Below are positions 6,788 to 49,618 of a DNA stretch of 49,618 bases, one piece after another; the first letter of the stretch is position 1, and every line of letters starts with the position of its first letter. The notes below the pieces were generated by a model, which did no database searches, was not told where the DNA came from, and saw only the letters and a program-made list of their open reading frames with translations. Made by a program: the position numbers and the translations under genes. This DNA is from Leifsonia sp. CL147 (GTDB lineage: Bacteria > Actinomycetota > Actinomycetes > Actinomycetales > Microbacteriaceae), in contig NZ_FOTM01000002.1 of the NCBI RefSeq assembly GCF_900114565.1, positions 219,471 to 269,088 of the forward strand, read 5' to 3'.

Positions 6788-7416
6788 TTTTGGACCTGGG
6801 GGTTCAGGTTGCACCGATCGACCCGGTGGTCGTTCCGGTTGAAGGAATACACGCCGGTCTTCGACTCCTGATCGAATCGCTCCGGCGTGTAGTCGTTTCC
6901 GACAACTCCGAGCCGTCGATAGCAATCGACCATAAGCGTGGCATAGTCCTTGTTCGTCGGATTCTGGATGACCTCCGCGTACAGCGCCTCGATGTAGTCG
7001 GTGGTTTCAACACCGCATTCGCCGACAACCGTCCCCGCGGAGTCTTGTGTGTATCCGATGCGTGCCTTTACCGAGTAGCTCCCGGGATTGCCGTAGCTCA
7101 CAGTTGCGGTGAACCCGCGGCCTGTCATGCAACTCACCCATCGTCTCTGTGCTTCGGACAGTTCCGCCTTGTCGACGACACCATCAGCGAGAACCTCCCT
7201 CTGGAAGTCACTCGTCGAGTTCTTGTACGCCTCGGCGAATTCGTTGGCAAAGGGTCCGGAGAATTTCGGAAGGGGACCGGCGTAGGCGGTTGTTCCCGCG
7301 GTCGGCGTCTCGTCGTGCTGTGGGTTGGCGGCCTGAGCGCAGCCCGCCAACCCACATGCTGCCAAAAGCACGCCGACACAGAGCCGCAGGGGGGCGGTTT
7401 TCCGTATCGTCGTCAT
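6784..7416 (-). CDS. Putative lipoprotein of the peptide/ABC operon
   Basis: A 210-residue protein with a lipoprotein signal: basic N-terminus (MTTIRKTAPLRL), hydrophobic stretch and lipobox LAGC with the acceptor Cys at about 26. The mature part contains four further cysteines (WVSCM, GECGV, DCYRR, DRCNL), which could form disulfides outside the cell. No family is recognised. It begins 13 bp after the small secreted-peptide gene and ends in an ATGA overlap with the next gene. GGAAGG sits unusually close to the ATG (about one base), so either coupling drives translation or the real start differs slightly. Base composition is lower in GC than in the flanking housekeeping genes. Confidence 0.68.
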   Translation of the reverse strand: MTTIRKTAPLRLCVGVLLAACGLAGCAQAANPQHDETPTAGTTAYAGPLPKFSGPFANEFAEAYKNSTSDFQREVLADGVVDKAELSEAQRRWVSCMTGRGFTATVSYGNPGSYSVKARIGYTQDSAGTVVGECGVETTDYIEALYAEVIQNPTNKDYATLMVDCYRRLGVVGNDYTPERFDQESKTGVYSFNRNDHRVDRCNLNPQVQK

Positions 7417-21125: not shown

Positions 21126-21140
21126 ATAGCCGCACCACTC

Positions 21141-21197
21141 GCCGGCACCCTCCGCCACCCGCCGGCACCCTCCGCCACCCGCCGGCACCCTCCGGCC
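21141..21197. repeat. 20-bp tandem repeat, 2.8 copies
   Basis: Two perfect copies of a 20-bp unit (GCCGGCACCC followed by TCCGCCACCC) occupy 21141-21180. A partial third copy runs to 21197, directly before the stop codon of the MpaB-like gene on the other strand. Confidence 0.8.
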
Positions 21198-21203
21198 GCC
21201 TCC

Positions 21204-33617: not shown

Positions 33618-36600
33618 ATGTTCACTTCACGGGACGGGCGTCTGCGGACGTCGGCCTTCGGGCTCGCAGCGATTCTTCTCGTGGCGTCGGCCGTGGCACT
33701 CGGGGCGCAGCCGGCGGCGGCGGATGTCACGCCCGTCTCGACCGTCTACAAGACCGGCACGGATCCGGCGACCGGCAGCTCGGCGGCCTCACCCGGTTCG
33801 CCCGGCGGCCAGCGCTCCGGGCAGACGCACCCCGGCGACACGATCGACTGGGTGATGAACTACTCCAACTCGACGGGGGCGGACGCGGCGGTCGATGCTC
33901 GTGATGCGCTGACCGGCGCCGGAACGTACGTGAACGGCTCCCTCGTCGTGCCGCCGGCCCAGATCCCGGAGGAGCCGTTCCAGGCTCAGTACTCCTCGAA
34001 CGGAGGCGGCACCTGGCAGCAGGGCGCTCCTCCGGCGGGCGCGACGGGAGTCGGCTTCACCGGCGGGGCAGCACCCGCGGTCAACGGCCTTCAGAAGCAG
34101 TTCAGCCAGCAGTTCCAAGTTCCCTCCGGAATCACCATCAACCAGACGGGTGGCGACGCTTACAACGGTGTGGTCGCCCAGGTGAACGGCCAGTATCAGA
34201 TCTATACGGCCTATCACCACAACACGGGGACGGGCTATCTGCTCTGCACGACGGCGACAGGCAACGTGTGTCCTGGCTGGCCGGGCACCAACTCCTATGC
34301 ATCCACCCAGGTCGGTGCACCCCTCGGTACGGGGCCGTTCACCAGCATGGCGACCACCTGGCAGAACGGGACCTTCCTCTCGGGAACGACGCTCACCTGG
34401 GAAGCGCAGGCGCGCACTGTGGACGCGACCGGGCTGTATCCCGTCGGGATGATGTGCCTCGACATCGTCACGCTCGTCAGCTGCGGCTTCCACGTGATCG
34501 CCCACGTGACCTTCCCGCCGTACTTCGCCGGCACCAACCCGTTGATCAGCGGCACGGGCCTCGCGGCGTCGGACGGCAACGACTACTTCGTCACGGCGGA
34601 CGGCGACATCCTGTGCTTCAACCCGACGAGCTTCGTCCCCTCGGACACGAGCTCGACCGGGCTCTGCGGAACGTTCCACATCCCCGGTGTGGCCGGGACC
34701 GATCGGCCGCCGCTCACACTCACCGTCGGCAACTACGTGTTCGCGGGGCTCATCGCCTCGCCGACCGCCGCCGGCCCCACGATGTACTGCTATAACGTCG
34801 TGACGGGCACCTTGTGCCCCGGCTACCCGGTGGCTGTGCCGACCGGTGTTCCGGCGGGCGCAGCGTTGCACGGTGCTCTCGCCCCCATCCTCGACGGTGC
34901 AGGCGCTGTCACGGGCGTCTGCTCCCTGCAGTCGGGGGTGGCAGGCAACTGCTGGAATCTGGCGGGGGGAAGCGTCCCCTCCCCGTACCCGACCAGCGCA
35001 GGATTCCATGATTCGTTCAGCGGCGACACCCTCGTCGTCGGCACCAAGGTGTATCCGCCGGTCAACAGCGACAATTCCGTCGGCTGCTTCGACTTCGCCA
35101 CCATGGTGGGCGGGCAGGTCCAGCCCTGTGCCGGGTTCACGCCGCCGAGCAATCCGACCAACTACACCTCCCGCCAGGTCGCCGGTATTCCCGGATGCCT
35201 GCTCGCCGCGGGCGATGGCCGGGTGATGAACACCTTCGATGCCACCACAGGCGGTCCGTGCGCGTCGACCTTCTCCTCCGCAACGGTGAACCCGATCGCC
35301 TCGTACTGCGGTTCCGGCGCGGCCGGGTTCCACTCGTGGAATTCCGTAGAGATCGACGGCCTTCCGTCGACGTCGTACGGATCCGCGGTCGTCACGGTAT
35401 TCAACAGCAACGGTCAGGTCGTCGCGGGCTTCGACCACGTGCAACTGCCGAACGGCGTGACCACACTCGACATCTCCTCGATACCGAAGACGGGGGCCAC
35501 AGCGAGTCTCACTGCGCAGGTCGAACTTCTCGGCGTCACCGATGCGAACGCGGTGACTCTCGGCCGTGCCGCGGTGACCTGGAACGGCGACCCGGTGCAG
35601 GCCTGCTTCCAGACGATCGCTCCGCCGGTATCGTGCGGTGTCTCCGGAGTGGTGTCCAACGACGTGACGATCACCACCAACGGAACGGGTGGCTCGGACA
35701 CAGGCAACAGCTCGGGGCCGACGTCGTTCACCAACACCAACCCCGCCGGCGCGTGCGTCGTCGATTTCGCCAAGTCGGCCTCGCCTCCGACGGCGAGTCC
35801 CGGGCAGACGGTGACCTGGACCATCTCTGTGACGAACAACGGCACAGTGGCCTTCGATGCAGCGAACCCGGCGACCTTCACCGACGACCTCTCGAACGTG
35901 CTGAACAACGCGACGTACAACGACGACGCCACGGCTTCCGCCGGCACGGTCAGCTATGCGGCCCCCGTCCTGACGTGGTCCGGTCCGCTTGCGGTCGGGG
36001 GGTCCGCGACGATCACCTACACGGGGACGGCCAACGCGACGAACACCGGTTCCGACCTGGTGAACACCGTCGTATCGGAGAGTGAGGGCAGCAACTGCAC
36101 GGCCGCCCAGCCCGCAGCGGTCTGCACGCAAGATGTGCCTGTCCTGGGTGTGACCCTGGTCAAGTCCGTCGACCCGGCGACGGTGGCGCGAGCGGGGGAC
36201 ACGGTGACGTACTCCTACCTGGTGACGAACATCGGAAGCCAGCCGCTCAGCGGGATGACGATCGTGGAATCGGCGGCCGATTTCACCGGGACGGGTGGCT
36301 TGCCTGTGGCCACCTGTCCCCTCCCCACGCTGAACCCGAACCAGTCCGAGACCTGCACGGCGACGTACACGATGACGCAGGCGGATGTGGACGCGGGATT
36401 CGTGGACAACACGGCGACTGCCGAGGGGACGGCGCCGGGTCAGCCGGCGCCGACGGTGTCCAACGACTCGTCGGCTCACGTGACGGCTCCCGCCGCCCCG
36501 AGCCTGACGCTGGACAAGACGGTCGCGCCGGCGACCGTCGCAGCAGCGGGGGACACCGTCACCTACAGCTATCTCGTGACGAACAACGGCACCGTGACGC

Positions 36601-38057
36601 TGAACGCCATCACGATCCTGGAGTCCGCCGGTGCCTTCACCGGGACAGGCCCGCTGCCCGTTCCGTCCTGCCCGCAGCCGTCTCTGGCGCCGAACACCTC
36701 CGAGACCTGCACGGCGGCCTACACGGTGACGCAGGCAGATGTCGACGCCGGCTTCGTCGACAACACCGCTACGGCGCAGGGCACGGCGCCCGGAGCCACG
36801 ACGCCGACGGAGTCGAATGAGTCCAGCGCTGCGGTGACCGCGCCGGCGAATCCCGCGCTCACGCTGGTGAAGAGCGTGTCGCCCGCGACGGTGACGTCGG
36901 CGGATGACCTGGTCACGTATTCCTATCTGGTCACCAACACCGGCAACGTGACGCTGCACGACATCGACATCCGCGAAGACGCCGCCGGATTCAGTGGGAC
37001 CGGTCCTCTTCCGGTCGCGGTCTGCCCGCTCCCGGTCTTGGCGCCGAGCGACTCCGAGACCTGCACGGCGAACTATCGCGTGACGCAGGCGGACGTCGAC
37101 GCAGGCGAGGTGCTGAACACGGCGACAGCGCTCGGCACGCCTCCGGGTGACACCGTCCCCGTCGAGTCGGCGCCCGACGACGCGGTGGTCACGGCGACGG
37201 CCAGCCCAGCCCTCTCGCTTGTCAAGTCGGCGACTCCGGGCACGGTCCATCGCTCCGGCGACGCGGTCACCTACAGCTACCTGGTGACGAACACGGGGAA
37301 CGTGACGCTGACCGCCATCGGGATCACCGAATCGGCCGCCGGCTTCACGGGAACGGGAACGCTTCCGGTGGCGACCTGCCCGCAGTCCGAGCTGGCTCCG
37401 GGTCAATCGGAGACGTGTACCGCCGACTATCAGGTCACGCAGGCGGATATCGATGCCGGCCGGATCCTGAACTCGGCGAGCGCACACGGCACGCCCCCTG
37501 GGGGTGCAGCAGCGATCGAGTCCGCGCCGGACGACGCGGTGGTGATCAGCGAGCCGATCGCGGGAATCGCCGTCGTGAAGAGCGTGTCGCCCACTGCTCT
37601 GCCCGCAGCGGGGTCCACGATCACCTATCGCTACATCGTCACGAACACCGGCAGTGCGCACCTGACCGCGGTCGCGGTGCTGGAGTCCGCAGCGGACTTC
37701 AGCGGGACCGGGCCGCTCCCGGCCCCTGTCTGCCCGAAGACCGCTTTGGCCCCGGGTGAGTCCATGACCTGCACCGCCGATTACGTGGTCACGTCCGCGG
37801 ACGAGGCGGCGCGAGTGGTCAGCAACGTCGCTCGCGCACAGGGCCTCCCTCGTGGGGCGACCGACCCGATCGTGTCCGCCCCCTCGGAAGCCGTGATCGA
37901 GGCGGCTCCGGTGGTGCTTCCGGGCCAGCCGGCGGTACTTCCGGGGCTCGCGTCGACCGGGTCCATGCTGGGCATCGGCGGCCTGCTGGTGGCGATGGGT
38001 CTCATTGTGGCCGGTGGCGTCCTGGGGCTGACGCGACTGCGAGCTCGTCGTCACTGA
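33618..38057 (+). CDS. Large LASTG-anchored surface protein with DUF11/DUF7507 repeats
   Basis: A 1479-residue secreted protein. A signal peptide occupies about 1-37 (ending QPAAA-D). The first 700 residues are a Gly/Thr/Cys-rich unrecognised domain. A DUF11-like domain (CVVDFAKSASPPTASPGQTV) follows around 712-830. Then come five repeats of 116-118 residues of the DUF7507 type, each starting like LVKSVxPATV and containing TYSYLVTN, SETCTA and TQADVDAG; their DNA begins near 36136, 36490, 36838, 37192 and 37546. The sorting signal is LASTG at residues 1444-1448, a hydrophobic helix and the tail RLRARRH, fitting class E sortase anchoring. GAGGA lies a few bases before the ATG. Likely a wall-anchored stalk or adhesin. 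Confidence 0.85.
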   Translation: MFTSRDGRLRTSAFGLAAILLVASAVALGAQPAAADVTPVSTVYKTGTDPATGSSAASPGSPGGQRSGQTHPGDTIDWVMNYSNSTGADAAVDARDALTGAGTYVNGSLVVPPAQIPEEPFQAQYSSNGGGTWQQGAPPAGATGVGFTGGAAPAVNGLQKQFSQQFQVPSGITINQTGGDAYNGVVAQVNGQYQIYTAYHHNTGTGYLLCTTATGNVCPGWPGTNSYASTQVGAPLGTGPFTSMATTWQNGTFLSGTTLTWEAQARTVDATGLYPVGMMCLDIVTLVSCGFHVIAHVTFPPYFAGTNPLISGTGLAASDGNDYFVTADGDILCFNPTSFVPSDTSSTGLCGTFHIPGVAGTDRPPLTLTVGNYVFAGLIASPTAAGPTMYCYNVVTGTLCPGYPVAVPTGVPAGAALHGALAPILDGAGAVTGVCSLQSGVAGNCWNLAGGSVPSPYPTSAGFHDSFSGDTLVVGTKVYPPVNSDNSVGCFDFATMVGGQVQPCAGFTPPSNPTNYTSRQVAGIPGCLLAAGDGRVMNTFDATTGGPCASTFSSATVNPIASYCGSGAAGFHSWNSVEIDGLPSTSYGSAVVTVFNSNGQVVAGFDHVQLPNGVTTLDISSIPKTGATASLTAQVELLGVTDANAVTLGRAAVTWNGDPVQACFQTIAPPVSCGVSGVVSNDVTITTNGTGGSDTGNSSGPTSFTNTNPAGACVVDFAKSASPPTASPGQTVTWTISVTNNGTVAFDAANPATFTDDLSNVLNNATYNDDATASAGTVSYAAPVLTWSGPLAVGGSATITYTGTANATNTGSDLVNTVVSESEGSNCTAAQPAAVCTQDVPVLGVTLVKSVDPATVARAGDTVTYSYLVTNIGSQPLSGMTIVESAADFTGTGGLPVATCPLPTLNPNQSETCTATYTMTQADVDAGFVDNTATAEGTAPGQPAPTVSNDSSAHVTAPAAPSLTLDKTVAPATVAAAGDTVTYSYLVTNNGTVTLNAITILESAGAFTGTGPLPVPSCPQPSLAPNTSETCTAAYTVTQADVDAGFVDNTATAQGTAPGATTPTESNESSAAVTAPANPALTLVKSVSPATVTSADDLVTYSYLVTNTGNVTLHDIDIREDAAGFSGTGPLPVAVCPLPVLAPSDSETCTANYRVTQADVDAGEVLNTATALGTPPGDTVPVESAPDDAVVTATASPALSLVKSATPGTVHRSGDAVTYSYLVTNTGNVTLTAIGITESAAGFTGTGTLPVATCPQSELAPGQSETCTADYQVTQADIDAGRILNSASAHGTPPGGAAAIESAPDDAVVISEPIAGIAVVKSVSPTALPAAGSTITYRYIVTNTGSAHLTAVAVLESAADFSGTGPLPAPVCPKTALAPGESMTCTADYVVTSADEAARVVSNVARAQGLPRGATDPIVSAPSEAVIEAAPVVLPGQPAVLPGLASTGSMLGIGGLLVAMGLIVAGGVLGLTRLRARRH

Positions 38058-38419: not shown

Positions 38420-40279
38420 ATGTCTGTCGCCCAGACTCCGAACACTCAGACTTCGAAGACCACCGCGAAGCGGAAGAGCACCGCGCGCATCCTGCTGCGC
38501 ATCCTCCCGTTCGCGAAGTCCGCTGCGCCCCGCATCGTGCTCGGCATGGTGGCCGCGCTGCTGGCGAGCCTCGTCGCCCTGAGCATCCCGCAGGTGCTGC
38601 GCTGGCTGGTCGACGGCCCGCTCTCGGCCGGTGACCCGGCAGCCGTGTGGCCTGCGGCCCTGCTCGTGGTCGGGCTGGGTGCGGCGGAGGCCGTGTTCAT
38701 CTCGCTGCGCCGCTGGTTCGTGCTGACCCCGGGCACCCATGTGGAGGCGCGGATGCGGAACGCGCTGTACGCGCAGCTGCAGGATCTGCCGGTCGCCTTC
38801 CACGACCGCTGGCCCAGTGGGCAGCTGCTGTCGCGCGCCGTCAGCGACCTGAGCCTGATCCGCCGCTGGCTGTCGTTCGGCATCGTGCTGCTGGTGGTCA
38901 ATGTCGTCACGATCGTGGTCGGGTTCGCCATCCTGATCGGCTGGAACTGGATCCTCGGGCTCATCTTCCTGGTGTGCTCCATCCCGCTCTGGATCTACGG
39001 CTTCGTGTTCGAGAACAAGTACTCCGTCATCGCGCGGCGCAGCCAGGATCAGGCGGGCGACCTGGCGACGGCTGTCGAGGAGTCGGTGCACGGCATCCGC
39101 GTCCTCAAGGCGTTCGGCCGGGGCAAGCACGCGCTGAAGAGCTTCGAGTCGCGCGCCGAGCAGCTCCGCGGCACGGAGATCGCCAAGGCGAAGGCCATCG
39201 CGGGAATCTGGCTCTGGCTGCTGCTGGTCCCGGATGTCGCGTTCGGCATCTGCCTGGTCGTCGGGGTGTGGCTCTCGGCGCAGGGTCAGCTGTCCGTCGG
39301 CGAGCTGGTGGCGTTCTTCGCCACGGCGACCGTGCTGCGCTTCCCGGTCGAGTCCATCGGCTTCCTGCTGTCGATGACGTTCGACACCCGCACGGCGGCC
39401 GACCGCTTCTTCGACGTGATGGACGAGGTCAATGCGATCACCGATCCCGCAGACCCCAAGCGCATCGCCGAGCCGCGCGGCGAGCTCGTCTTCGACGATG
39501 TGCACTTCCGCTACCAGGACTCGCCGGAGCGCTTCCCGGACCTGCTCGACGGAGTCCGGCTGACGGTGCGCCCGGGGGAGACCATGGCGCTGGTCGGTCT
39601 CACCGGCTCGGGCAAGTCGACGCTGACCGCCCTCACCACCCGGCTGTACGACGTCACCGGCGGTGCGATCACGGTGGACGGCGTGGACGTGCGCGACCTG
39701 ACCCGGTACGACCTGCGCAAGGCGATCGCCATGGCGTTCGAGGACGCGACGCTGTTCTCGGCATCCGTGCGCGACAACGTCCTGCTCGGCCGCGACGACC
39801 TCGACCCGGACTCCGCTGAGGCGGAGCGCGTGCTCGCCGAGGCACTCGATGTGGCGCAGGCCGGCTTCGTCTACGGCCTGCCCGAGGGCGTCGAGACGAA
39901 GGTCGGCGAGGAGGGGCTCAGCCTGTCCGGGGGACAGCGGCAGCGTCTCGCGCTCGCGCGGGCCGTCGCGGCCGACCCGAGCATCCTGGTGCTCGACGAC
40001 CCGCTGTCGGCGCTGGATGTGGACACGGAGGCGCTCGTCGAGGCGGCGCTGCGGCGGGTGCTCGCGTCGACCACCGCGCTGATCGTCGCGCACCGCCCCT
40101 CCACGGTGATGCTCGCCGACCGGGTCGCCCTGCTGGAAGACGGCCGGGTGACCGCGGTCGGCACCCACCATGAACTGCTCGCCACCAGCGAGCACTACCG
40201 CTTCGTCATCTCCAGCCTGGAGGACGAAGAGCCGGACAACGATACGACTGGCGAGATCCTCGAGGAGGCGAACCTGTGA
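38420..40279 (+). CDS. Heterodimeric ABC exporter, subunit with degenerate ATP site
   Basis: A 619-residue type IV (ABCB-like) exporter half-transporter: six-helix membrane domain (about 35-330), then an ATPase domain. Walker A is GLTGSGKST and the signature [14 protein letters not shown] is canonical. The Q-loop Gln is replaced by Glu (AFEDATLF, E441), and the catalytic Glu after Walker B is Asp ([12 protein letters not shown]527). These changes mark the degenerate-site partner of heterodimers such as BmrCD and TM287/288. The stop overlaps the next gene in a GTGA junction. Function is probably drug or lipid export; a leader ORF and candidate WhiB7-type promoter support a drug-response role. 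Confidence 0.9.
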
Positions 40280-42090
40280 GCACGACGACAGTGCTGGGCG
40301 TCGAAGGCGAAGAGCGCAACGACCTCAGCAAAGAGGAGAGCCGGCAGGTCCGGCGCCGTTCGCTGCGCCTGCTGGGCTCGCTGCTGCATCCACTGCGGAT
40401 GCGGCTGCTGCTGACGGCGATCGTGGTCGTGGTGAGCACGGCAGCCCAGGTGGCCGGTCCGGCGCTCATCGCGTTCGGCATCGACAACGGCCTGCCGGCC
40501 CTGCTGAAGCAGGACTGGCTCCCGCTGGCGGCCGCCGGCGTCGCCTACCTGTTCACGGGCGTCATCGGCGCTGCCCTGATCGCGTGGTACACCGTCCTGA
40601 GCGCGCGGATCAGCCAGGCCATCCTGCTCGACCTGCGCAAGCGGGTGTTCCTGCACACGCAGAAGCTGTCGCTGGAGTTCCACGAGTCGTACACCTCCGG
40701 CAGGATCATCTCCCGCCAGACGAGCGACCTCGACTCGATCCGCGAACTGCTCGACTCCGGCATCAACCAGCTGGTGCAGGGCTTCCTGTACATGCTGTTC
40801 ATCGCGGTCGCGCTGTTCTCGATCGACGGGGTCAGCGGTCTGGTGCTGCTCGGGTCGCTGGTGCCGCTGTACTTCCTGACGCGCTGGTTCCAGAAGCGGT
40901 CGCAGGCGCTCTTCCGCATCTCGCGGGTGGCGTCGGCGAAGGTGATCGTGCACTTCGTGGAGACGATGACCGGCATCCGCGCGGTCAAGGCGTTCCGGAA
41001 GGAGAAGCGCAACGAGAAGGAGTTCGGCGGCCTGGTCGAGGAGTACCGGGATGTGAACGCCCGCGTCATCCAGCTGTTCGGGATCTTCGACCCCGGGCTC
41101 GTGATGATCGGCAACGTGACGGTCGGCGTCGTGCTGCTCGTCGGCGGCTTCCGCGTCGCCGACGGCGCTCTCCCGATCGGTGTGCTGCTCGCGGTGCTCC
41201 TGTACACGCGGCGGTTCTTCGACCCGATGGAGGAGATGGCGATGTTCTACAACTCCTACCAGTCGGCCGCGGCGGCGCTGGAGAAGATCTCGGGCGTCCT
41301 CGAAGAGGAGCCCAGCGTCCCGGACCCCGTGAAGCCGGTCGACCTGTGGTCGGCGGAGGGCCACGTGCGCTTCGACGGCGTGACCTTCGCCTACAAGAAG
41401 GACCGGGTCATCCTGCCGGAGTTCACGCTCGACATCCCGGCCGGGCAGACCGTTGCGCTGGTCGGATCGACCGGCGCAGGCAAGTCCACGCTGGCGAAGC
41501 TGATCTCGCGGTTCTACGACCCGAGCGAGGGACGGGTGACGCTGGACGGTGTGGATCTGCGCGATCTGCACCCGAAAGACCTCCGCCGCGCGATCGTGAT
41601 GGTCACGCAGGAGGCGTACCTGTTCAGCGGGTCGGTCGCGGACAACATCGCCCTCGGCAAGCCGGACGCGTCCCGGGAGGAGATCGTCCGGGCGGCGAAG
41701 GCGGTCGGCGCGCACGAGTTCGTCGAGGGCCTGCCCGACGGGTACGACACCGACGTGAACAAGCGGGGAGGCCGGGTGTCCGCCGGACAGCGGCAGCTGA
41801 TCTCGTTCGCCCGGGCGTTCCTGGCCGACCCGGCCGTGCTGATCCTGGACGAGGCCACGAGCTCTCTCGACATCCCGAGCGAGCGGCTGGTCCAGGAGGC
41901 GCTGCAGACGCTGCTCTCGGACCGCACGGCCGTGATCATCGCGCACCGCCTGTCGACGGTCGCGATCGCCGACCGGGTGCTCGTGATGGAGCACGGACGC
42001 GTCGTCGAGGACGGCACGCCCGACGACCTGATCGCCGGCACGGGACGCTTCGCGCAGCTGCACGCGGCGTGGCGGGACTCGCTGGTGTAA
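40276..42090 (+). CDS. Heterodimeric ABC exporter, catalytic-site subunit
   Basis: A 604-residue half-transporter with six helices (about 45-345) and an ATPase domain. Walker A is GSTGAGKST, the Q-loop MVTQEAYLF and Walker [11 protein letters not shown] with catalytic Glu526, all canonical. Its signature is degenerate, VSAGQ at 501-505 instead of LSGGQ. This complements the partner: one ATP site combines this subunit's good Walker motifs with the partner's good LSGGQ, and the other combines both degenerate parts. The GTG at 40276 overlaps the partner's TGA, ensuring coupled 1:1 translation. The operon ends five bases before palindrome array 2. Confidence 0.92.
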
Positions 42091-42095
42091 GGCCG

Positions 42096-42436
42096 GCATT
42101 CGTCACGAATGTCGCCCTGGGGTGAGGGGGAGTGCGCATTCGTGACGAATGTCGCCCTAACGCGAGGGGGAGTGCGCATTCGTGACGAATGTCGCCTTGG
42201 GGTGTGGGGGAGTGGACATTCGTGACGAATGTCGCCTTGGGGTGTGGGGGAGTGGACATTCGTGACGAATGTCGCCTTGGGGTGTGGGGGAGTGGACATT
42301 CGTGACGAATGTCGCCTTGGGGTGTGGGGGAGTGGACATTCGTGACGAATGTCGCCCTGGGGTGTGGGGGAGTGGACATTCGTGACGAATGTCGCCTTGG
42401 GGTGTGGGGGAGTGGACATTCGTGACGAATGTCGCC
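42096..42436. repeat. Palindromic repeat array 2 (nine 40-bp units)
   Basis: The 13-nt core ATTCGTSACGAAT recurs at exactly 40-bp steps: 42098, 42138, 42178, 42218, 42258, 42298, 42338, 42378 and 42418. Each is followed by GTCGCC. Between palindromes lies a near-identical filler of about 20 bp (TTGGGGTGTGGGGGAGTGGA or close variants). The first three copies have G rather than A at the outermost left position, and the first has C at the centre while the rest have G. Open frames through this array are artefacts: 40 is not a multiple of three, so each frame repeats the same peptides. Confidence 0.95.
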
Positions 42437-42785
42437 GACGGGCGGCCCGGCGCAGGGCGATCACGACGAGCGGCAGCTCCTGCGCGCCGACCGTGCCGCC
42501 GACGACGAAGGGGAGGCGGTCCGCCGTGGTCGCGCGGCCCTCGCCACTGCGCCCGCCGCAGCAGACGGAGCGCCGGTCGGGCCCGCGGCTCGGGTCACGG
42601 GGAATCGCCTTCTTCTGGGTAGGTCGTCGGCCGCCGGTCGGGCGGAGGAACCTCACCGTTCGGGTCGGTGAGGTTGTCTCACATCCTGTCCCTGCCTGGG
42701 CCTGGCCCGCATCCGGGGGTCCACCTCATTCCGTTTACGTGGAGGCACGGATGAACACCGGGACCCGTGCGGTCATCATGGAGCC
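42437..42785. other. Intergenic region with no convincing gene
   Basis: Between array 2 and the receiver gene. It contains one perfect hairpin (AACCTCACC at 42649-42657 pairing with GGTGAGGTT at 42667-42675, nine-base loop). A minus-strand open frame contains a hydrophobic stretch (FVVGGTVGAQELPLVVIALR), but it runs on into the repeat array and matches no family I recognise; a decayed gene cannot be excluded. Confidence 0.5.
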
Positions 42786-43136
42786 ATGTTGTCCCTCCGG
42801 GTGGTGATCGTCGACGACCACGAGCGGTTCCGCGAACAGGCCGCCGAACTGCTCCGGCTGCACTGCTTCACGGTCGTCGGGGACTGCGACACCGCGGCCC
42901 GGGGGGTCGAATTGAGCCGCCGTCTCACACCCGACGTGGTCCTGCTCGACGTCGGCCTGCCCGACGCGAGCGGTTTCGACATCGTGCCCGAGATGCGGGC
43001 GACCGGGGCGGCTGTCGTGCTCACGTCCAGCCGTTCGGCCCAGGACTACGGCAGACGCGTGGCCGACAGCGGCGCGGAGGGGTTCATCAATAAGGACGAG
43101 TTGACCGGTGAGGCGATCCGCACCCTGCTAAGGTAA
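42786..43136 (+). CDS. Single-domain (receiver-only) response regulator
   Basis: A 116-residue CheY-like receiver with no output domain. The acidic pair is Asp10/Asp11 (VIVDDHERFR), the phospho-acceptor Asp55 (VLLDVGLPD), the switch residue Thr80/Ser81 (VLTSS) and the conserved Lys103 (FINKDEL). It is followed four bases later by a LuxR-type regulator and then a histidine kinase, so it probably competes for or relays phosphate from the same kinase. The ATG at 42786 is closely preceded by GGAG. Confidence 0.85.
   Translation: MLSLRVVIVDDHERFREQAAELLRLHCFTVVGDCDTAARGVELSRRLTPDVVLLDVGLPDASGFDIVPEMRATGAAVVLTSSRSAQDYGRRVADSGAEGFINKDELTGEAIRTLLR
43129..43134 (+). promoter_or_regulatory. -10-like element inside the end of the receiver gene
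   Basis: TAAGGT at 43129-43134 overlaps the last codons of the receiver gene and ends six bases before the GTG of the next regulator. This spacing matches the other leaderless starts in the window and suggests the LuxR-type regulator can be transcribed on its own. Confidence 0.4.
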
Positions 43137-43140
43137 GCGC

Positions 43141-43824
43141 GTGAGCGGGGGACAGACAGAGGGTTCTCGCGCGCTCCGGGTGGCCGTCGCCGACGACGCA
43201 GTGCTTCTGCGCGAAGGGATCGGGCAGATCCTGCGTGCGGGCGGCATGCAGGTCGTCGTGTCCGTCGATACCGCTGAGGAGCTCCTCGCCGCGGTCGCGG
43301 AGGAGGACGGGATCGATGCGATCGTCCTCGACATCAAGATGCCGCCCACGCACACCGACGAGGGGCTGCGTGCGCTGGAGCGTCTCCGCGCCGGCGGTTC
43401 GAGGGCCGGCGTCCTGCTCCTCTCGATGTACACGACGGCGTCGTACGCCATCCGCGCCATGAGTGCGGGAAGCGGAACCGGTTACCTGCTGAAGGATCGC
43501 GTCGCCGACGCCGACACACTGGTGACGGCCGTCCGGACGGTCGCCCGCGGGGGATCCGTCGTCGATCCGGAGGTCGTCCAGTTCCTCGTCTCCGCGCGAT
43601 CGTCCGAGGCGGCCGTCGAGGCGCTGTCCGCTCGCGAGCGCGACGTCCTGCGGCTGATGGCCGAGGGCAAGTCGAACGCGGGCATCGCCACCGAGCTGCA
43701 CCTCAGCCTCCGCACGGTCGAGTCGCACATCGGGCACATCATGGCGAAGCTGGGGGTGGAGGACTCGGCCGAAGGGCACCGCCGGGTGCTCGCCGTCCTG
43801 CGCTTCCTCGGCCGGGACGTCTGA
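43141..43824 (+). CDS. NarL/LuxR-family response regulator
   Basis: A 227-residue two-domain transcription factor. The receiver has Asp18/Asp19, phospho-acceptor Asp64 (IVLDIKMPP), Ser95 and Lys118 (GYLLKDR). A LuxR-type helix-turn-helix spans about 162-226 (LSARERDVLRLMAEGKSNAGI, then LHLSLRTVESHIGHIMAKLGV). It begins with GTG and lies five bases upstream of the histidine kinase. It is the likely output of this two-component system; targets are not visible. Confidence 0.93.
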   Translation: MSGGQTEGSRALRVAVADDAVLLREGIGQILRAGGMQVVVSVDTAEELLAAVAEEDGIDAIVLDIKMPPTHTDEGLRALERLRAGGSRAGVLLLSMYTTASYAIRAMSAGSGTGYLLKDRVADADTLVTAVRTVARGGSVVDPEVVQFLVSARSSEAAVEALSARERDVLRLMAEGKSNAGIATELHLSLRTVESHIGHIMAKLGVEDSAEGHRRVLAVLRFLGRDV

Positions 43825-43828
43825 GCTC

Positions 43829-45667
43829 ATGGATCTCGCGCGCCCGGTGTCCGCGCGCTCCACTCCCGCGCCTCCCGAGCGGGAGGCCGAGCTTCGGCGA
43901 CCGGATGCGGGGCGTCTCGGGCTCCGAGCGCTGGCGCTCACCGTCGCGCTCGCCTCCAACGTCCTGGCGCAACTGCTCAGCGCTGTCACGGACGACTACG
44001 GCCCCCGGCCGTCCGGAATCGGCTGGGCGATCGTCTTCGTCGCCGTCGCCGTCGACTACCTCGTGTGCGCGGTGGTCGCCTGGCGTATCGTGCGCAGCCC
44101 CGTCCCCGGCTGGCTGATGGTCGGCGCCGCCCTGTTCTGGTCGGCGGGGGCCTGGTACCCGATGGTGCGGCCGTGGGGATGGGTCTGGCCGTGGATCGAA
44201 GGAGTCACCGACCTGTGGGCCGTGCTGGTCGGGCTTCTCGTGCTCTGCTATCCGACAGGGAGGCTGGCCCGCCGCTTCGATCGGATCGTCGTCCTGGTGG
44301 TGTCGGGCGCCTTCCTGGTGCGGCTGGGCGGCATCCTGCTGTTCGCGTCGCCGGAGCCCGCCGTGTGCGGATGCGCCTTCAACCCGTATGCGGTGCTGCC
44401 GAGCGACACCGCCGATTTCTGGCTCGGGCTGGCGTGGCGGTTCGTCGGCCTGGCCCTGATGCTGACGGTTGCCGCCCGGCTCATCGCGCGGTGGTTCACC
44501 AGCTCGCTTCCGGCCCGCCGCGTGGCCTTCGTCATGCCGCTGGCCATCCTGCTGTGGTGCTTCGGCACGGTCCAGGAGTCGTTGAGCTTCGCTCTGCACT
44601 GGGACGGCGGCTGGCTCCAGTTCGTCCCTCCGGTCGCGATCGCGCTCATCCCGCCCGCTTTCGTCGGCGGTGTGCTGTACGCGAGAGGGCTTCGCTCGCG
44701 CGTGGCCGACTTGGTCATCGTCGCGCGTGACAAGGTGGATCGGGGGCTCTGGGAGTCGAGTCTGGCCCGCACCCTCCACGATCCGTCCCTGCGTGTGTTC
44801 TGGTGGGACGAGCCGCTGCAGCGCTACCAGACGAGCGACGGAGAACCGGCATCGGATGCGGGGCTCACCCAGCGGCCCGGCCGTTCCACCCTCGCGATCG
44901 ACTCGGATCAGGGACCGATCGCGCTCATCGAGCACGACGTCGCCCTCACCCAGGATGACCGGCTGCTCGACGCTGTCTCCTCGGCTCTGCTCCTCTCGGT
45001 CGACAACGACCGGCTCCGGGAACGGCTGGAGCGCACCATCCACGAGTTGCGCGAGTCCCGCCTCCGCATCGTCGAGGAGGGCTATCTGGCCAGACGCAGG
45101 CTGGAGCGCGACCTGCACGACGGCAGCCAGCAGCAGCTCGTCTCGCTGGCGATCAGCCTCCGCATCGCGACGGCCAAAGCCGAGGCGCACGGAGACGAGG
45201 AGCTCGCCGTGGACCTGCGACGTGCAGCGGGCCAGCTCGGCGATGCGCTGCGGGAGCTCCGCGAACTGGCTCGCGGCATCCACCCGACCGTGCTGACCGA
45301 CGGCGACCTCCGCTCGGCGATCGAGGAGCTCGGGATGCGCAGCCACCTGCCGGTCGAGGTCCACATCGACATCGGGGAGCGTCTGCCCGATGTCGTCGAG
45401 GAGACCATCTACTACTGCGTCTCGGAGTGTCTCGCCAACGCGGCGAAGCACGCGCACGCCCGCAACTGCAGCGTGCTCGTGACGCGCACCGACTCCACCG
45501 TGGCGGTCGTCGTGAAGGACGACGGACAGGGCGGGGCGAGGATCGAGCCGGGCGGAGGGCTGGAGGGTCTGCGGGACCGCGTCGAAGCGGTCTCCGGCCG
45601 CGCAGACGTCCGCTCGGTGGAGGGGCTCGGCACGATCATCGAGCTCACCATCCCCGTGCTCGCCTGA
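43829..45667 (+). CDS. NarL-type sensor histidine kinase
   Basis: A 612-residue kinase. The N-terminal half has about eight helices (residues 30-290) without a large external domain, suggesting sensing within or close to the membrane. A GAF-like linker region spans about 300-390. The HisKA_3 dimerisation motif is LERDLHDGSQQQLVSLAISLR with phospho-acceptor His430. The ATPase domain ends with DDGQGGARIEPGGGLEGLRDRVEAVSG. It belongs with the LuxR-type regulator directly upstream; cognate pairing is inferred from adjacency. The stimulus is not known. Confidence 0.92.
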   Translation: MDLARPVSARSTPAPPEREAELRRPDAGRLGLRALALTVALASNVLAQLLSAVTDDYGPRPSGIGWAIVFVAVAVDYLVCAVVAWRIVRSPVPGWLMVGAALFWSAGAWYPMVRPWGWVWPWIEGVTDLWAVLVGLLVLCYPTGRLARRFDRIVVLVVSGAFLVRLGGILLFASPEPAVCGCAFNPYAVLPSDTADFWLGLAWRFVGLALMLTVAARLIARWFTSSLPARRVAFVMPLAILLWCFGTVQESLSFALHWDGGWLQFVPPVAIALIPPAFVGGVLYARGLRSRVADLVIVARDKVDRGLWESSLARTLHDPSLRVFWWDEPLQRYQTSDGEPASDAGLTQRPGRSTLAIDSDQGPIALIEHDVALTQDDRLLDAVSSALLLSVDNDRLRERLERTIHELRESRLRIVEEGYLARRRLERDLHDGSQQQLVSLAISLRIATAKAEAHGDEELAVDLRRAAGQLGDALRELRELARGIHPTVLTDGDLRSAIEELGMRSHLPVEVHIDIGERLPDVVEETIYYCVSECLANAAKHAHARNCSVLVTRTDSTVAVVVKDDGQGGARIEPGGGLEGLRDRVEAVSGRADVRSVEGLGTIIELTIPVLA

Positions 45668-45688
45668 GGCGGGGACGGCGCCCGCCCG

Positions 45689-45706
45689 CGTCTGCTTCGG
45701 CAGGCG
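45689..45706. terminator. Possible terminator between kinase and lipoprotein genes
   Basis: CGTCTGC and GCAGGCG pair (one G-T pair) around a TTCG tetraloop in the 54-bp gap between convergent stop codons. Confidence 0.4.
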
Positions 45707-45721
45707 TCCGCGCGGTGACGG

Positions 45722-46144
45722 CTACTTCGTGGCCGCCCGCGCGGCCCAGACCTGCTGACCGATCGCGAAGGCGGACCAGCCGCCGGGGCAGCCGGCCGAC
45801 TTCGGCGGGATGCCGTCCACCGGCCACCAGCTGTCCTGGATGGTGGGCTTCAGCGTCGCCACCTGCGTCTTGCACACGTTCGGAACGAGCAGCGCCTTGG
45901 ACGTGTAGGTCATGATGGCCGACCCGTCCTGGGTGTCGTAGTCGAGACGGATGAGCGTCGCGTCGTCCGGAACGAACTTCGGGGAGCCGACGATGGCCGT
46001 GTTCGCGGCCTTCATGTCCTTCGCGGTGTCCCAGATCTCCGACTCCACATGCGGTGCGAATGCTGTCACGACGGAGCACCCGGACAAGGCCAGGGCAAGG
46101 GCGGACGTCGTCGCGATGACTCCAGCGGTTCGGATGCGGGGCAC
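45722..46144 (-). CDS. Putative lipoprotein, function unknown
   Basis: A 140-residue protein starting at GTG 46144, preceded by GGAG with five-base spacing. The lipoprotein signal is PRIRTAGVIATTSALALALSGC, with lipobox LSGC and acceptor Cys near residue 23. The mature part has two further Cys (VPNVCKT, SAGCPGG). The C-terminal VDGIPPKSAGCPGGWSAFAIG is distinctive, but I cannot name a family. A start 15 codons further upstream would put a polar stretch before the signal and is less likely. Confidence 0.7.
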   Translation of the reverse strand: MPRIRTAGVIATTSALALALSGCSVVTAFAPHVESEIWDTAKDMKAANTAIVGSPKFVPDDATLIRLDYDTQDGSAIMTYTSKALLVPNVCKTQVATLKPTIQDSWWPVDGIPPKSAGCPGGWSAFAIGQQVWAARAATK

Positions 46145-46205
46145 GGCAGCTCCAGGGGAAAGGGACAGGGATGCACTAGAAGTGAACACTACGGAACTGA
46201 ACGAA

Positions 46206-46634
46206 TCATCGGTCGGAGGGATGATTCCGGCCGTTCTCCCCGGAGGGCTCCGGCTCCGGTTCCGACTCCTCGAACAGTACCGGGCTGAGCCGTGCCGCGC
46301 GCATGTCGATCCGGAAGGCGGCGCCGGCGCCGCGGAGGAGCGGCGTGCCTTCGGCCCGGTAGTGCTCCAGCGCGAGGTGCTCGTGCTTCACAGGGGGATG
46401 CCCGCCGGCTCGCACGACGCGCCACCACGGAACCTCGCTGCCGTAGAACGCCATCACCTGCCCGACCATGCGTGCCGCGCGCGATCCGAGCGCCGCCGCC
46501 ACATCCCCGTAGGTCATCACGCGGCCGGGAGGGATGGCGTCGACGACCTCGAGGACCCGGTCCACGAAGGAGTCCGGATGGCCGGACGAACCCGGACGGT
46601 CGGACGAGTCCGGACGGTCAGAGATCGAGGGCAC
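46206..46634 (-). CDS. Alkyltransferase-like protein (ATL, MGMT family)
   Basis: A 142-residue member of the O6-alkylguanine-DNA alkyltransferase family lacking the active-site Cys: the usual PCHRV is PWWRV at 69-73. The DNA-binding helix region is intact (PPGRVMTYGDVAAALGSRAARMVGQVM). ATL proteins bind O6-alkylguanine and hand it to nucleotide excision repair instead of removing the alkyl group. The GTG at 46634 overlaps the end of the GNAT gene by 17 bp. The first 22 residues are a repetitive Asp/Pro/Ser stretch, so a start nearer FVDRVLEVV is possible. Confidence 0.85.
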   Translation of the reverse strand: MPSISDRPDSSDRPGSSGHPDSFVDRVLEVVDAIPPGRVMTYGDVAAALGSRAARMVGQVMAFYGSEVPWWRVVRAGGHPPVKHEHLALEHYRAEGTPLLRGAGAAFRIDMRAARLSPVLFEESEPEPEPSGENGRNHPSDR

Positions 46635-47070
46635 CGATCGTCTCGCCGTACTGCGTCTCGCCCACGGGCTTGAAGCCGCTGCGCAGGAAGAACTGCTCCG
46701 GACCCAGCTCTCCGGACTCCCAGATCACGTGGAGCCGCTGGTGGCCGCGGGCCCGCGCCTCGTCGGCCAGCGCGCGGACGGCGAACGTGCCGATTCCGCG
46801 GCCCTGGTCGTCGGCGTCGACGTTGATGCGCCAGAGGATCGCCTTGAACTCCTCGTGCTCTGCATTGGGGTCGAAGTTGCCCATGATGAAGCCGACCACC
46901 TCGTCGCCGTCGAGCACGACGCGCTGCCACGACGTGTTCGGATCGGCGACCGCGGCCGCGGCCGAGTAGGACACAGGAGCGATGAACTGCTCCTGGCCCG
47001 GCTTCAGTGTCAGCGCGTTCGCCGCCACGACGGTCCGCGCGCTCAACTCTTCCAGTCTCAACTCAGCCAT
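46618..47070 (-). CDS. GNAT family N-acetyltransferase
   Basis: A 150-residue acetyltransferase. The acetyl-CoA-binding motif A is WRINVDADDQGRGIGTFAVRALADEARARG, with the Q-x-x-G-x-G core. It continues with HVIWESGELGPEQFFLRSGFK, which fits spermidine/spermine-type GNATs loosely. Substrate not known. The ATG at 47070 is preferred: TACCCT (plus coordinates 47077-47082) ends six bases before it, as for other leaderless genes here. Longer upstream reading enters the icd leader and coding region. It overlaps the ATL gene by 17 bp, so the two are co-transcribed. Confidence 0.85.
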   Translation of the reverse strand: MAELRLEELSARTVVAANALTLKPGQEQFIAPVSYSAAAAVADPNTSWQRVVLDGDEVVGFIMGNFDPNAEHEEFKAILWRINVDADDQGRGIGTFAVRALADEARARGHQRLHVIWESGELGPEQFFLRSGFKPVGETQYGETIGALDL

Positions 47071-47139
47071 GACGAAAGGGTAACGTGCGGGAGCGACTGC
47101 GGCATAGTCGCGCGCAGCCGACGATTCGCCGAGAGAAAC

Positions 47140-47157
47140 TGTCTCGATGTCAAGATA
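47140..47157. promoter_or_regulatory. Operator-like palindrome upstream of icd
   Basis: TGTCTCGATGTCAAGATA contains the imperfect palindrome TCTnGAnnTCnAGA and lies 59 bp before the icd ATG, in the gap to the divergent GNAT gene. It resembles the palindrome upstream of sucC (23899-23916). Confidence 0.45.
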
Positions 47158-47215
47158 GTTGTCGCACTCGGGTAAGCTGACGGAGGCTTGAAACGGCAGA
47201 CACCCCAGGAGAACC

Positions 47216-48430
47216 ATGGACAAGATCAAGGTTGACGGAACGGTCGTCGAACTCGACGGCGACGAGATGACGCGCATCATCTGGAAGGCGATCAAAGACT
47301 CCCTCATCCACCCGTACCTCGATGTGAACCTCGAGTACTACGACCTCGGAATCCAGAAGCGCGACGAGACCGACGACCAGATCACGATCGACGCGGCCCA
47401 CGCCATCCAGAAGCACGGCGTCGGCGTGAAGTGCGCAACGATCACGCCCGACGAGGCGCGCGTCGAGGAGTTCGGTCTCAAGAAGATGTGGAAGAGCCCG
47501 AACGGCACGATCCGCAACATCCTCGGAGGCGTCGTCTTCCGTGAGCCGATCATCATCTCCAACATCCCGCGGCTGGTCCCGGGCTGGAACAAGCCGATCG
47601 TCATCGGCCGTCACGCCTTCGGCGACCAGTACCGCGCGACCGACTTCACGTTCGACGGCCCGGGCACACTGACCATCAGCTTCCAGCCGAACGGCGGCGG
47701 CGAGGCGCAGAGCTTCGAGGTCTACCAGGCTCCCGGCGCCGGTGTCGCGCTCGCCATGTACAACCAGGACGAGTCCATCCGCGACTTCGCCCGCGCGTCG
47801 TTCAACTACGGCCTCGACCGCCAGTACCCGGTGTACCTGTCGACCAAGAACACCATCCTGAAGGCGTACGACGGCCGCTTCAAGGACCTCTTCCAGGAGG
47901 TCTTCGACACCGAGTACAAGCAGAAGTTCGACGCCGCCGGCCTCACGTACGAGCACCGCCTGATCGACGACATGGTCGCCTCCAGCCTCAAGTGGGAGGG
48001 CGGGTACGTCTGGGCCTGCAAGAACTACGACGGCGATGTCCAGTCCGACACCGTCGCCCAGGGCTTCGGCTCGCTCGGCCTGATGACCTCGGTGCTGACC
48101 ACCCCGGACGGCTCGGTCGTCGAGGCGGAGGCGGCGCACGGCACGGTGACCCGTCACTACCGCCAGCACCAGCAGGGCAAGCCGACCTCGACCAACCCGA
48201 TCGCCTCGATCTTCGCCTGGACGCGCGGCCTCGCGCACCGCGGCAAGCTCGACGGCAACCAGGACCTCATCGACTTCACGCACACCCTCGAGGACGTCGT
48301 GGTGAAGACGGTCGAGCAGGGCAAGATGACCAAGGACCTCGCACTCCTGGTCGGTCCCGAGCAGGCGTTCCTCACCACGGAGGAGTTCCTGGAGGCGATC
48401 AGCGACAACCTGAAGGCTCGCGTGGCCTGA
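47216..48430 (+). CDS. icd: NADP-dependent isocitrate dehydrogenase
   Basis: A 404-residue homodimeric (eukaryote-like, type II) isocitrate dehydrogenase producing 2-oxoglutarate and NADPH in the TCA cycle. It starts [21 protein letters not shown] and contains [23 protein letters not shown] (substrate-binding Ser and Arg), [14 protein letters not shown], the metal-binding [24 protein letters not shown] and [14 protein letters not shown] (cofactor-binding). Length is normal for this type. AGGAG is seven bases from the ATG. It is divergent from the GNAT gene and has an operator-like palindrome in between. Confidence 0.97.
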
Positions 48431-48480
48431 CGCACTCGCGAGACCTGACGCACTCGCGAGACCTGACGCACTCGCGAGAC
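48427..48480. repeat. 18-bp tandem repeat overlapping the icd stop codon
   Basis: Three perfect head-to-tail copies of CTGACGCACTCGCGAGAC at 48427-48444, 48445-48462 and 48463-48480. The first copy contains the icd stop codon (TGA 48428-48430). Each copy includes the palindrome CTCGCGAG. Confidence 0.95.
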
Positions 48481-48486
48481 GCACGA

Positions 48487-48521
48487 AGGAGGCCCCGGGG
48501 ACGATGTCCCCGGGGCCTCCT
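48487..48521. terminator. Terminator between icd and the DUF805 gene
   Basis: A perfect 16-bp stem (48487-48502 with 48506-48521), starting AGGAGGCCCC, with a GAT loop. It lies between convergent genes and ends just before TCGTCG. Confidence 0.88.
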
Positions 48522-48543
48522 CGTCGCTGGTGCGATCGATCCG

Positions 48544-49026
48544 CTAGGCGCGCGGACGGTCGAAGCGGGCGCCCTCCGGCTTCGAGGGGAGCAGCGTGAG
48601 GACGAGCACGATGATGCCGCCCACGAACGGGATGAAGCCGAGGAAGAAGAACGGCCCGGCGAGGTTGGCGTCGTGCAGGCGTCGCCAGGTCAGGGCGAGC
48701 TGCGGGACGATCGTGGCCAGCCACCAGACGATGAGCACCACGAAGAGGACCCAGTAGAGCGGCCCGAGGGTCGCCGTTCCATCGCTGTTCACGCTCGCGC
48801 CGACCATCCCGAGGCTGAACATCAGGATGTAGAGCACGACGTCGACGATGAAGTATGCGAGGAACCACCACCAGTACTCGCTGCGGCTGGCGCGGCCGGT
48901 GAAGTCCGCATACTTCTTGAAGAAGCGCTGGATGGACTGCCCGAAGGAAGCGCCGTAGAGCGGCGCCCAGAGCGGGGTCTCGCCTGCGGATGCAGGCGGA
49001 GCGGTCGGATACTGGGGTGTCGTCAC
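48544..49026 (-). CDS. DUF805 domain membrane protein
   Basis: A 160-residue protein with a Pro-rich N-terminus, then a DUF805 domain: FFKKYADFTGRASRSEYWWWFLAYFIVD, TWRRLHDANLAGPFFFLGFIPFVGGII. About four helices. The GTG at 49026 is preferred over a start 14 codons upstream because AAGGA lies six bases before it. DUF805 members are small inner-membrane proteins without a known reaction. Confidence 0.9.
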   Translation of the reverse strand: MTTPQYPTAPPASAGETPLWAPLYGASFGQSIQRFFKKYADFTGRASRSEYWWWFLAYFIVDVVLYILMFSLGMVGASVNSDGTATLGPLYWVLFVVLIVWWLATIVPQLALTWRRLHDANLAGPFFFLGFIPFVGGIIVLVLTLLPSKPEGARFDRPRA

Positions 49027-49157
49027 GATGGGTCCTTTCCAAGACACGTGTTCGGGTGAGGCGCCCAACAGTCAAGCGCATGAGAGTGAACTGCAGGTAC
49101 AGCGTGACTCGGCGTGTCCTCCATCCGATCCCGCCAGCGGCCCAGCGGGTACGCGCG

Positions 49158-49323
49158 ACATTCGTCACGAATGTGCACCTCCGGGCGGCTGGGCGCGACA
49201 TTCGTCACGAATGTGCCGTCACTGCTGGCTGAGCGCGACATTCGTCACGAATGTGCCGTCACTGCCGGCTGAACGCGACATTCGTCACGAATGTGCACCT
49301 CCGGGTGGGTGAACGCGACATTC
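49158..49323. repeat. Palindromic repeat array 3, interrupted by an IS element
   Basis: Cores ATTCGTCACGAAT stand at 49160, 49200, 49240 and 49280, exactly 40 bp apart, each within GCGACATTCGTCACGAATGTGC. Filler between them alternates between two related sequences (CACCTCCGGG.. and CGTCACTGC..). A fifth unit begins on schedule (ACATTC at 49318-49323) and is cut off by the IS end. Confidence 0.93.
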
Positions 49324-49618
49324 CGGGCTGTGTCAAGCTGCGTGGAGTCGTTGGGTGGGGGTGTTGATGCCGACGAAGCCGGCTGGCTTTGGGGTGTTGG
49401 GGTGGTGGCGGAAGCGTTCGGGGTGGGCTTGGTAGTAGGCGTGTTGGACGTTGTGGCGGTGTTGCCAGTGGCGGTGCCAGCTGCCGTCGTGGACCTGGTC
49501 GGGTGAGAACAGGGCGATGCCGGAGTGTTTGTGGTGCTGGTTATACCAGGGCACGTAGGTGTCCATGAACGCCCGGGCTTGCTCGATCGTGTCGAAGATG
49601 CCGGGGTAGTTGGGGCGG
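49324..49618. mobile_element. End of an IS3-family insertion sequence (partial)
   Basis: The sequence changes abruptly from the palindromic array to transposon sequence near 49324. The transposase stop codon is at 49333-49335, about ten bases from this junction, typical of the right end of IS3-family elements. The other end is outside the window, so terminal inverted repeats and target duplication cannot be compared. Confidence 0.75.
49333..49618 (-). CDS. IS3-family transposase, C-terminal part (runs off window)
   Basis: The last 94 residues of an OrfB/DDE transposase; the rest lies beyond the window edge. Recognisable are FDTIEQARAFMDTYVPWYN, HHKHSGIALFSPDQVH, AYYQAHPERFRHHPNTP and GFVGINTPTQ, matching the end of the rve catalytic domain and the tail of actinobacterial IS3 transposases. 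No frameshift or stop is seen in the visible part. The catalytic DDE residues are not included. Confidence 0.85.
   Translation of the reverse strand, partial: RPNYPGIFDTIEQARAFMDTYVPWYNQHHKHSGIALFSPDQVHDGSWHRHWQHRHNVQHAYYQAHPERFRHHPNTPKPAGFVGINTPTQRLHAA

Follow-up and report, generated by a model that had tools for sequence, protein, structure and literature searches.

What is a short palindrome that recurs at steps of 40 bp, in three separate arrays within one stretch of a Leifsonia chromosome, and what keeps it so exact? The window considered here, i.e. the whole stretch of DNA that was analysed, spans 49,618 nucleotides of Leifsonia sp. CL147. A first-pass annotation had left three candidates for the arrays: sites for an abundant DNA-binding protein, structures at transcript ends, or a non-autonomous repeat element. 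The features on which the question turns are the following.

11 to 110, no strand assigned: array 1, three palindromes, spaced 40 and then 43 bp
42096 to 42432, no strand assigned: array 2, nine palindromes, every step 40 bp
49158 to 49294, no strand assigned: array 3, four palindromes in 40-bp steps
49318 to 49323, no strand assigned: half palindrome ACATTC, the unit that follows in array 3, cut by an insertion sequence (IS)
49325 to 49618, minus strand: right end of an IS3-type IS with the C-terminus of its transposase, continuing to the contig end

The window holds 16 matches to ACATTCGTSACGAATGT, against a mean of 0.03 in dinucleotide shuffles (up to three mismatches allowed). Their number and positions agree with the first-pass annotation, whose description of all 16 as intact was slightly generous: 11 fit ACATTCGT-S-ACGAATGT exactly and five carry one mismatch, which affects an outer base in four of them and, in the fifth (51-67), position 15 on the margin of the 13-bp core. 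The start-to-start distance within arrays is 40 bp with a single exception of 43, so the spacing reported earlier stands, as does the one cut copy, located where the IS begins. Equating 40 bp with four helical turns is only approximate (3.8 turns at 10.5 bp per turn), and helical phasing of the arrays was discarded because the period makes no whole number of turns. The three units of array 1 probably form the right end of a longer array: a run of Ns stands immediately before the window, and on its far side, to the left in the contig, there are three further units (C26:219167-219263). Array 2 follows an ABC transporter gene (40276-42090) and begins 5 bp after its stop codon. No RNA family at gathering scores and no tRNA was found in the window. 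Other repeats seen there are three tandem 18-bp units (CTCGCGAGACCTGACGCA-like) at 48417-48480, at the end of an open frame (47216-48430); a fourfold direct repeat with a period of 354 bp at 36151-37512, inside a 1479-aa frame (33618-38057) and probably representing repeated protein domains; and 10-bp units (CCACCCTCCG-like) in an array at 21135-21203.

A motif restricted to the three window sites, the outcome that the first-pass annotation had named as contrary to its view, is not what we found. In the CL147 genome (G000), a draft of 3,775,309 bases in 38 contigs, the exact 17-mer occurs 270 times and its inner 13-mer, ATTCGT-S-ACGAAT, 456 times (reversed control, 0). Among 27 congeners, the 13-mer is present in 20, at 1 to 226 copies, and the 17-mer in 13; with CL147 included, carriers of the 13-mer amount to 21 of 28 genomes, and the seven genomes without any copy include the near relatives G013 and G018. 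The 17-mer was found in none of 32 non-Leifsonia genomes, and a scan of named records for two close-spaced 17-mers, which may leave out CL147 itself, returned 11 stretches, all from Leifsonia. Of 398 genomes drawn from the family, 10 were Leifsonia, and seven of these had a 15-mer; among the 388 others it occurred in two, with a single hit in each, which is chance level (about two expected, an estimate that assumes uniform base composition). Exact 17-mers were absent from viral contigs, and array 2, as the sole query and with the BLAST low-complexity filter on, had no match among plasmids. The palindrome family is, as far as searched, restricted to the genus. The open-access literature, queried with the motif letters, Leifsonia and REP terms and leaving most subscription papers uncovered, yielded no record of the motif; papers with fragments of its letters do not deal with bacterial repeats, as far as their titles and the start of their abstracts tell.

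What is kept within the arrays was analysed in 706 kb of the 3.78 Mb of CL147, namely three whole contigs, the window's whole contig and part of a fifth. These contigs were chosen for listed 17-mer matches or for holding the window, and array density in the sample is not a fair estimate of that in the genome. The sample contains 21 arrays or single sites totalling 108 units, of which 106 have a perfect 12-base core and two a single mismatch, and 78 of 87 spacings are exactly 40 bp. Within arrays, the mean pairwise difference is 0.000 for the core and 0.152 for the filler; between arrays, it is 0 for the core and 0.58 for the filler. The earlier statement that filler is alike inside arrays and different between them thus holds as a trend (15% vs 58%), and with fillers about 85% alike within arrays there are no unique spacers, so that CRISPR was rejected, as it had been at first pass. 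Rotated fillers differ by 0.70, and the slight likeness between arrays (58% vs 70%) points to a common ancestry.

Across 17 arrays (76 units), segregating positions number 0 of 204 in the core, 8 of 17 at the centre, 13 of 68 among the outer bases and 107 of 391 in the filler (core vs filler, Fisher 1e-22). The centre of the 13-mer in the CL147 genome is G or C (S) in 456 cases and A or T (W) in one; in the sample, 106 of 108 ATTCG-NNN-CGAAT sites carry TGA or TCA, and in 44 congener loci, picked for holding the motif, TGC or GCA replaces TSA in 34 of 154 palindromes. Outside the arrays, a scan of the same sample at up to two mismatches, which misses units with more than two core mismatches, gave just nine single sites and one pair, all with two mismatches. 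The best core matches in array flanks have at least four mismatches of 12, and two flank matches resemble decayed units, one beside C14:125527 (with an insert) and one beside C26:103850 (one base shorter). The outer four bases are altered in 27 of 108 units and fully compensated in none; the letters therefore seem to be kept, not the pairing, which suggests recognition as double-stranded DNA by a putative dimer. Together with the G/C-only centre and the fixed spacing, this preference for letters argues for a sequence-specific dimer binding double-stranded DNA, and we infer that the palindrome core is under strong and ongoing constraint.

Congener palindromes come in pairs at a distance of 40 bp, and this doublet is the unit; it often encloses a third palindrome, which lies midway and is variable in several species. 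Exact 40-bp steps between two 13-mers number 638 in 19 of 28 whole genomes, 324 of them in CL147 (control, 0). Centre-to-centre distances below 120 bp in the 44 motif-holding congener loci, two places of which are doubled (L041 = L097, L042 = L105), are 40 bp (56 times), 20 bp (16 times), 35 bp (11 times) and others fewer. The 23-bp spacer varies by species. The 54 distinct congener spacers are self-complementary beyond crossed halves (6.06 vs 5.04 of 11 pairs, 0/2000), ATTCGTGSCACGAAT in G026 and L. shinshuensis being an example. In CL147, the self-complementarity of the spacer is lower than that of crossed halves (3.45 vs 4.46 of 11 pairs, 1992 of 2000 controls being at least as high), and a self-complementary filler was rejected for this genome. 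In L. shinshuensis DP-L11, the known palindrome of L044 has a neighbour of like shape at 7303-7319, ACATTTGCCGCAAATGT, which may hint at another related family.

Such exactness could have been imposed by the cell, in which case the arrays would be sites of an abundant chromosome protein, serving nucleoid structuring, partition or occlusion and selected with no selfish spread. The perfect core with its G/C centre and the fixed 40-bp geometry with 20-bp half steps would suit this, as would the scatter of 17-mer loci over the chromosome. With the ParB gene standing in for the origin, the chromosome half opposite to it holds 15 of 20 loci in G023 (p 0.04) and 12 of 18 in G019 (p 0.24), so that the relation to the terminus that the first-pass annotation had proposed to plot is weak in the former and not significant in the latter. 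Operators of KorB are 13-bp palindromes with a central S, and the Leifsonia palindrome has the same length and centre as these ParB-family sites; however, CL147 has a single ParB_N (PF02195) match, hence no Noc/KorB-like paralogue was found. A ParB/parS-like partition site was rejected on the same ground: no second ParB able to bind the palindrome was found in this genome, and the earlier remark that the arrays are not parS holds. GntR-, TetR-, MarR- and KorB-like operators were considered for the palindrome and no candidate regulator emerged. Host function would also sit poorly with the absence of the 17-mer from 32 non-Leifsonia genomes and with the seven Leifsonia genomes that have no site, G013 and G018 among them; 200 kb each of G018 and G005 contained no comparable palindrome family (largest counts 4 and 3). 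We regard host function as unlikely.

The location of the arrays raises a different question, namely whether tandem hairpins terminate transcription or protect mRNA 3' ends. Genes were called by codon score, with no annotation used. By these calls, 19 of the 21 sampled arrays are entirely intergenic; the array at C26:122575 shares about 36 bp with the end of a called frame, and the single site at C15:203063 falls in a weakly scored frame. Most are near gene 3' ends, 11 of 21 beginning at most 61 bp past the stop of the left gene. The 18 array-holding intergenic regions with genes called on both sides comprise eight convergent, eight tandem and two divergent pairs. Convergent pairs account for about 39 of 302 other gaps of at least 60 bp (320 minus the 18 array loci), which makes them enriched at arrays (p 0.0017), also after dropping one locus classed by an inserted IS (7 of 17, p 0.005).

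Orthologous junctions were compared at two of these places. At the ABC gene end occupied by array 2, the core is absent from all 27 congeners, the scan taking in whole loci (1.5 kb each side; closest 92% identical). Several plus-oriented loci among them (e.g. G020, G009, G001 and G026), read by eye, have a strong hairpin directly after the ABC stop codon; in CL147 this hairpin is missing and array 2 stands in its place. At the junction of the C26:115484-115660 array, the core is absent from all eight congeners examined, and the junction measures 18 bp in G013 and G018 vs 217 bp in CL147, where a terminator-like hairpin is retained before the array. Junctions orthologous to the latter in G001, G009 and G025 (L120, L121 and L122), also between convergent genes, hold other repeats when read by eye, GGAGGAG/CTCCTCC and CTCACCGANTGGTGAG-like. 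By eye, G002 and G021 appear to share one orthologous site (L094, L098), and G019 and G023 another (L155, L156), so the family is not young everywhere. Around 5795-5850 of L101 (G021), a terminator-like hairpin, AAAAGGGAGGGG..CCCCTCCCTTTT, encloses the right palindrome of a doublet in its loop.

Gene-end placement, convergent enrichment and the substitution of array 2 for a hairpin are all consistent with a role at transcript ends; the RNA of array 2 also folds far better than shuffles (z -7.6), as expected of any palindrome array. No terminator-like site (hairpin plus T tract) occurs in 41500-49618, which spans arrays 2 and 3, nor is there a T tract close to either array, and an intrinsic terminator was rejected there, while the C26:115484 locus retains its own hairpin beside the array. 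Hairpins require pairing and not fixed letters, yet fully compensated changes are absent; a loop does not need a G/C-only centre, and two of the 18 loci have divergent genes on either side. What survives of this first-pass candidate is mainly the location, and we judge it decidedly improbable.

Array 3 is cut by the IS3-type IS, and the same IS stretch read from another copy (L110) matches PF13683 (rve_3, E 4.2e-7). Besides the window copy (49325-49618), copies lie on CL147 contigs C8, C35, C17, C15 and C24, and several contigs break at the IS. Six of seven right-end junctions in CL147 fall in the palindrome: five show ACATTC and then the end of the IS, with an additional C in two of them, one follows ACATTCGTGACGAAT, and the seventh is elsewhere. 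IS3-family elements insert into REPs in E. coli and Klebsiella, and IS1397, ISKpn1 and ISPsy8 are REP-targeting members of this family (PMC1525189, in part). The junctions might suggest that the repeat is a miniature of the resident IS, copied by its transposase, a very remote prospect that is largely refuted by the distribution of the two: of the 28 genomes, 21 carry the repeat, whereas an IS end was detected in one. By eye, the right end of the IS, GGGCTGTGTCAAG, has no palindrome in common with the repeat. The IS is therefore an unlikely source, and looks like a parasite that uses the repeats as landing sites. A neutral satellite or an assembly artefact is scarcely credible: several CL147 contigs do start or end in the IS, most of them within an array, and at two places a palindrome is followed by Ns, so that the draft may misstate the number of units, but arrays are also present in the independent single-contig genomes of G023 and G025, which removes the concern about artefacts voiced at first pass, and the core of a satellite would vary like its filler.

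We consider it probable that the arrays are Leifsonia-specific intergenic repeats of the REP/REPIN kind, based on a doublet and kept exact by a putative dimer that binds double-stranded DNA. The repeat-element reading is the best supported because of the lineage-specific copy number, the array-less orthologous junctions, the doublet unit and the targeting by the IS; the non-autonomous repeat of the first-pass annotation thus fares best, and its protein site would enter as part of the same account. The basic unit would be two 13-bp palindromes exactly 40 bp apart, with the third, variable one midway in several congeners. Doublets would have settled mainly near gene 3' ends and, in the species of CL147, would have been drawn out into tandem 40-bp arrays. 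A putative dimeric protein would read the palindrome as double-stranded DNA and thereby keep core, G/C centre and spacing exact; most likely it would be either a copying enzyme of the repeat or a host protein through which the repeats became useful. The evidence on repeat gain is presence and absence between species, no transposition event or target duplication being directly seen; three G026 elements inspected by eye showed no target-site duplication, a feature of MITEs. Host selection could account equally well for how many arrays the high-copy species have.

Known repeat families offer several points of comparison. In the parts of PMC3116915 used here, REPINs of Pseudomonas fluorescens are described as short extragenic palindromes in hundreds of copies, with fixed-distance doublets over-represented and some evenly spaced tandem arrays, the doublet of REPs being the replicative unit. 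The Leifsonia repeat likewise exceeds 100 copies (456), is mainly extragenic (19 of 21), forms fixed-distance doublets (638 steps, 19 of 28 genomes) and is an IS target (6 of 7 junctions). It differs in being a perfect, symmetric 13-bp palindrome with fixed 40-bp spacing, whereas REPIN palindromes are imperfect, and in belonging to Actinobacteria. PF01797 (Y1_Tnp, IS200/IS605-type), the domain expected of a RAYT, has no match in any of the 28 genomes, CL147 being a draft and several congeners single contigs, while 5 of 14 control genomes were positive; nor is there a GTAG tag, as no more than 9 of 108 units in CL147 have GTAG or CTAC at a distance of up to 12 bp. Given these two absences we do not claim membership of REP/REPIN and call the repeat only REP-like; they count against a REPIN-like reading, as does the CL147 spacer that falls below its crossed-halves control. 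CGTC-tagged REPs are similarly palindromic, mainly intergenic, near gene 3' ends and with no dedicated transposase known (PMC3733652, in part); the Leifsonia repeat differs by having no fixed CGTC tag (no more than 24 of 108 units have CGTC or GACG nearby). Their hosts, in the same part of PMC3733652, are Proteobacteria, Chlorobi, Bacteroidetes, Spirochaetes and Thermotogae, and "actino" is absent from its main text. BIMEs, or palindromic units, of E. coli also form regularly spaced palindrome arrays, but their units alternate in orientation (PMC2817692, in part), which cannot be defined for the symmetric Leifsonia unit, and the sequence differs.

Within the REP-like reading, one possible mechanism, offered tentatively, is a REPIN-like repeat without RAYT: a putative dimeric enzyme of another class would recognise the double-stranded 13-bp palindrome, measure 40 bp as two dyads round a third, and copy or amplify the doublet to gene ends, with the core staying exact as the rest drifts.

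REP repeats are common in bacteria and depend on RAYT transposases for their spread. As its genomes hold as many as 456 REP-like sites, differ clearly between species in their presence and yielded no Y1 transposase in any of 28 cases, Leifsonia provides a direct test case for repeats that multiply and stay exact without RAYTs, and the 40-bp array is a ready bait for fishing out the binding protein.
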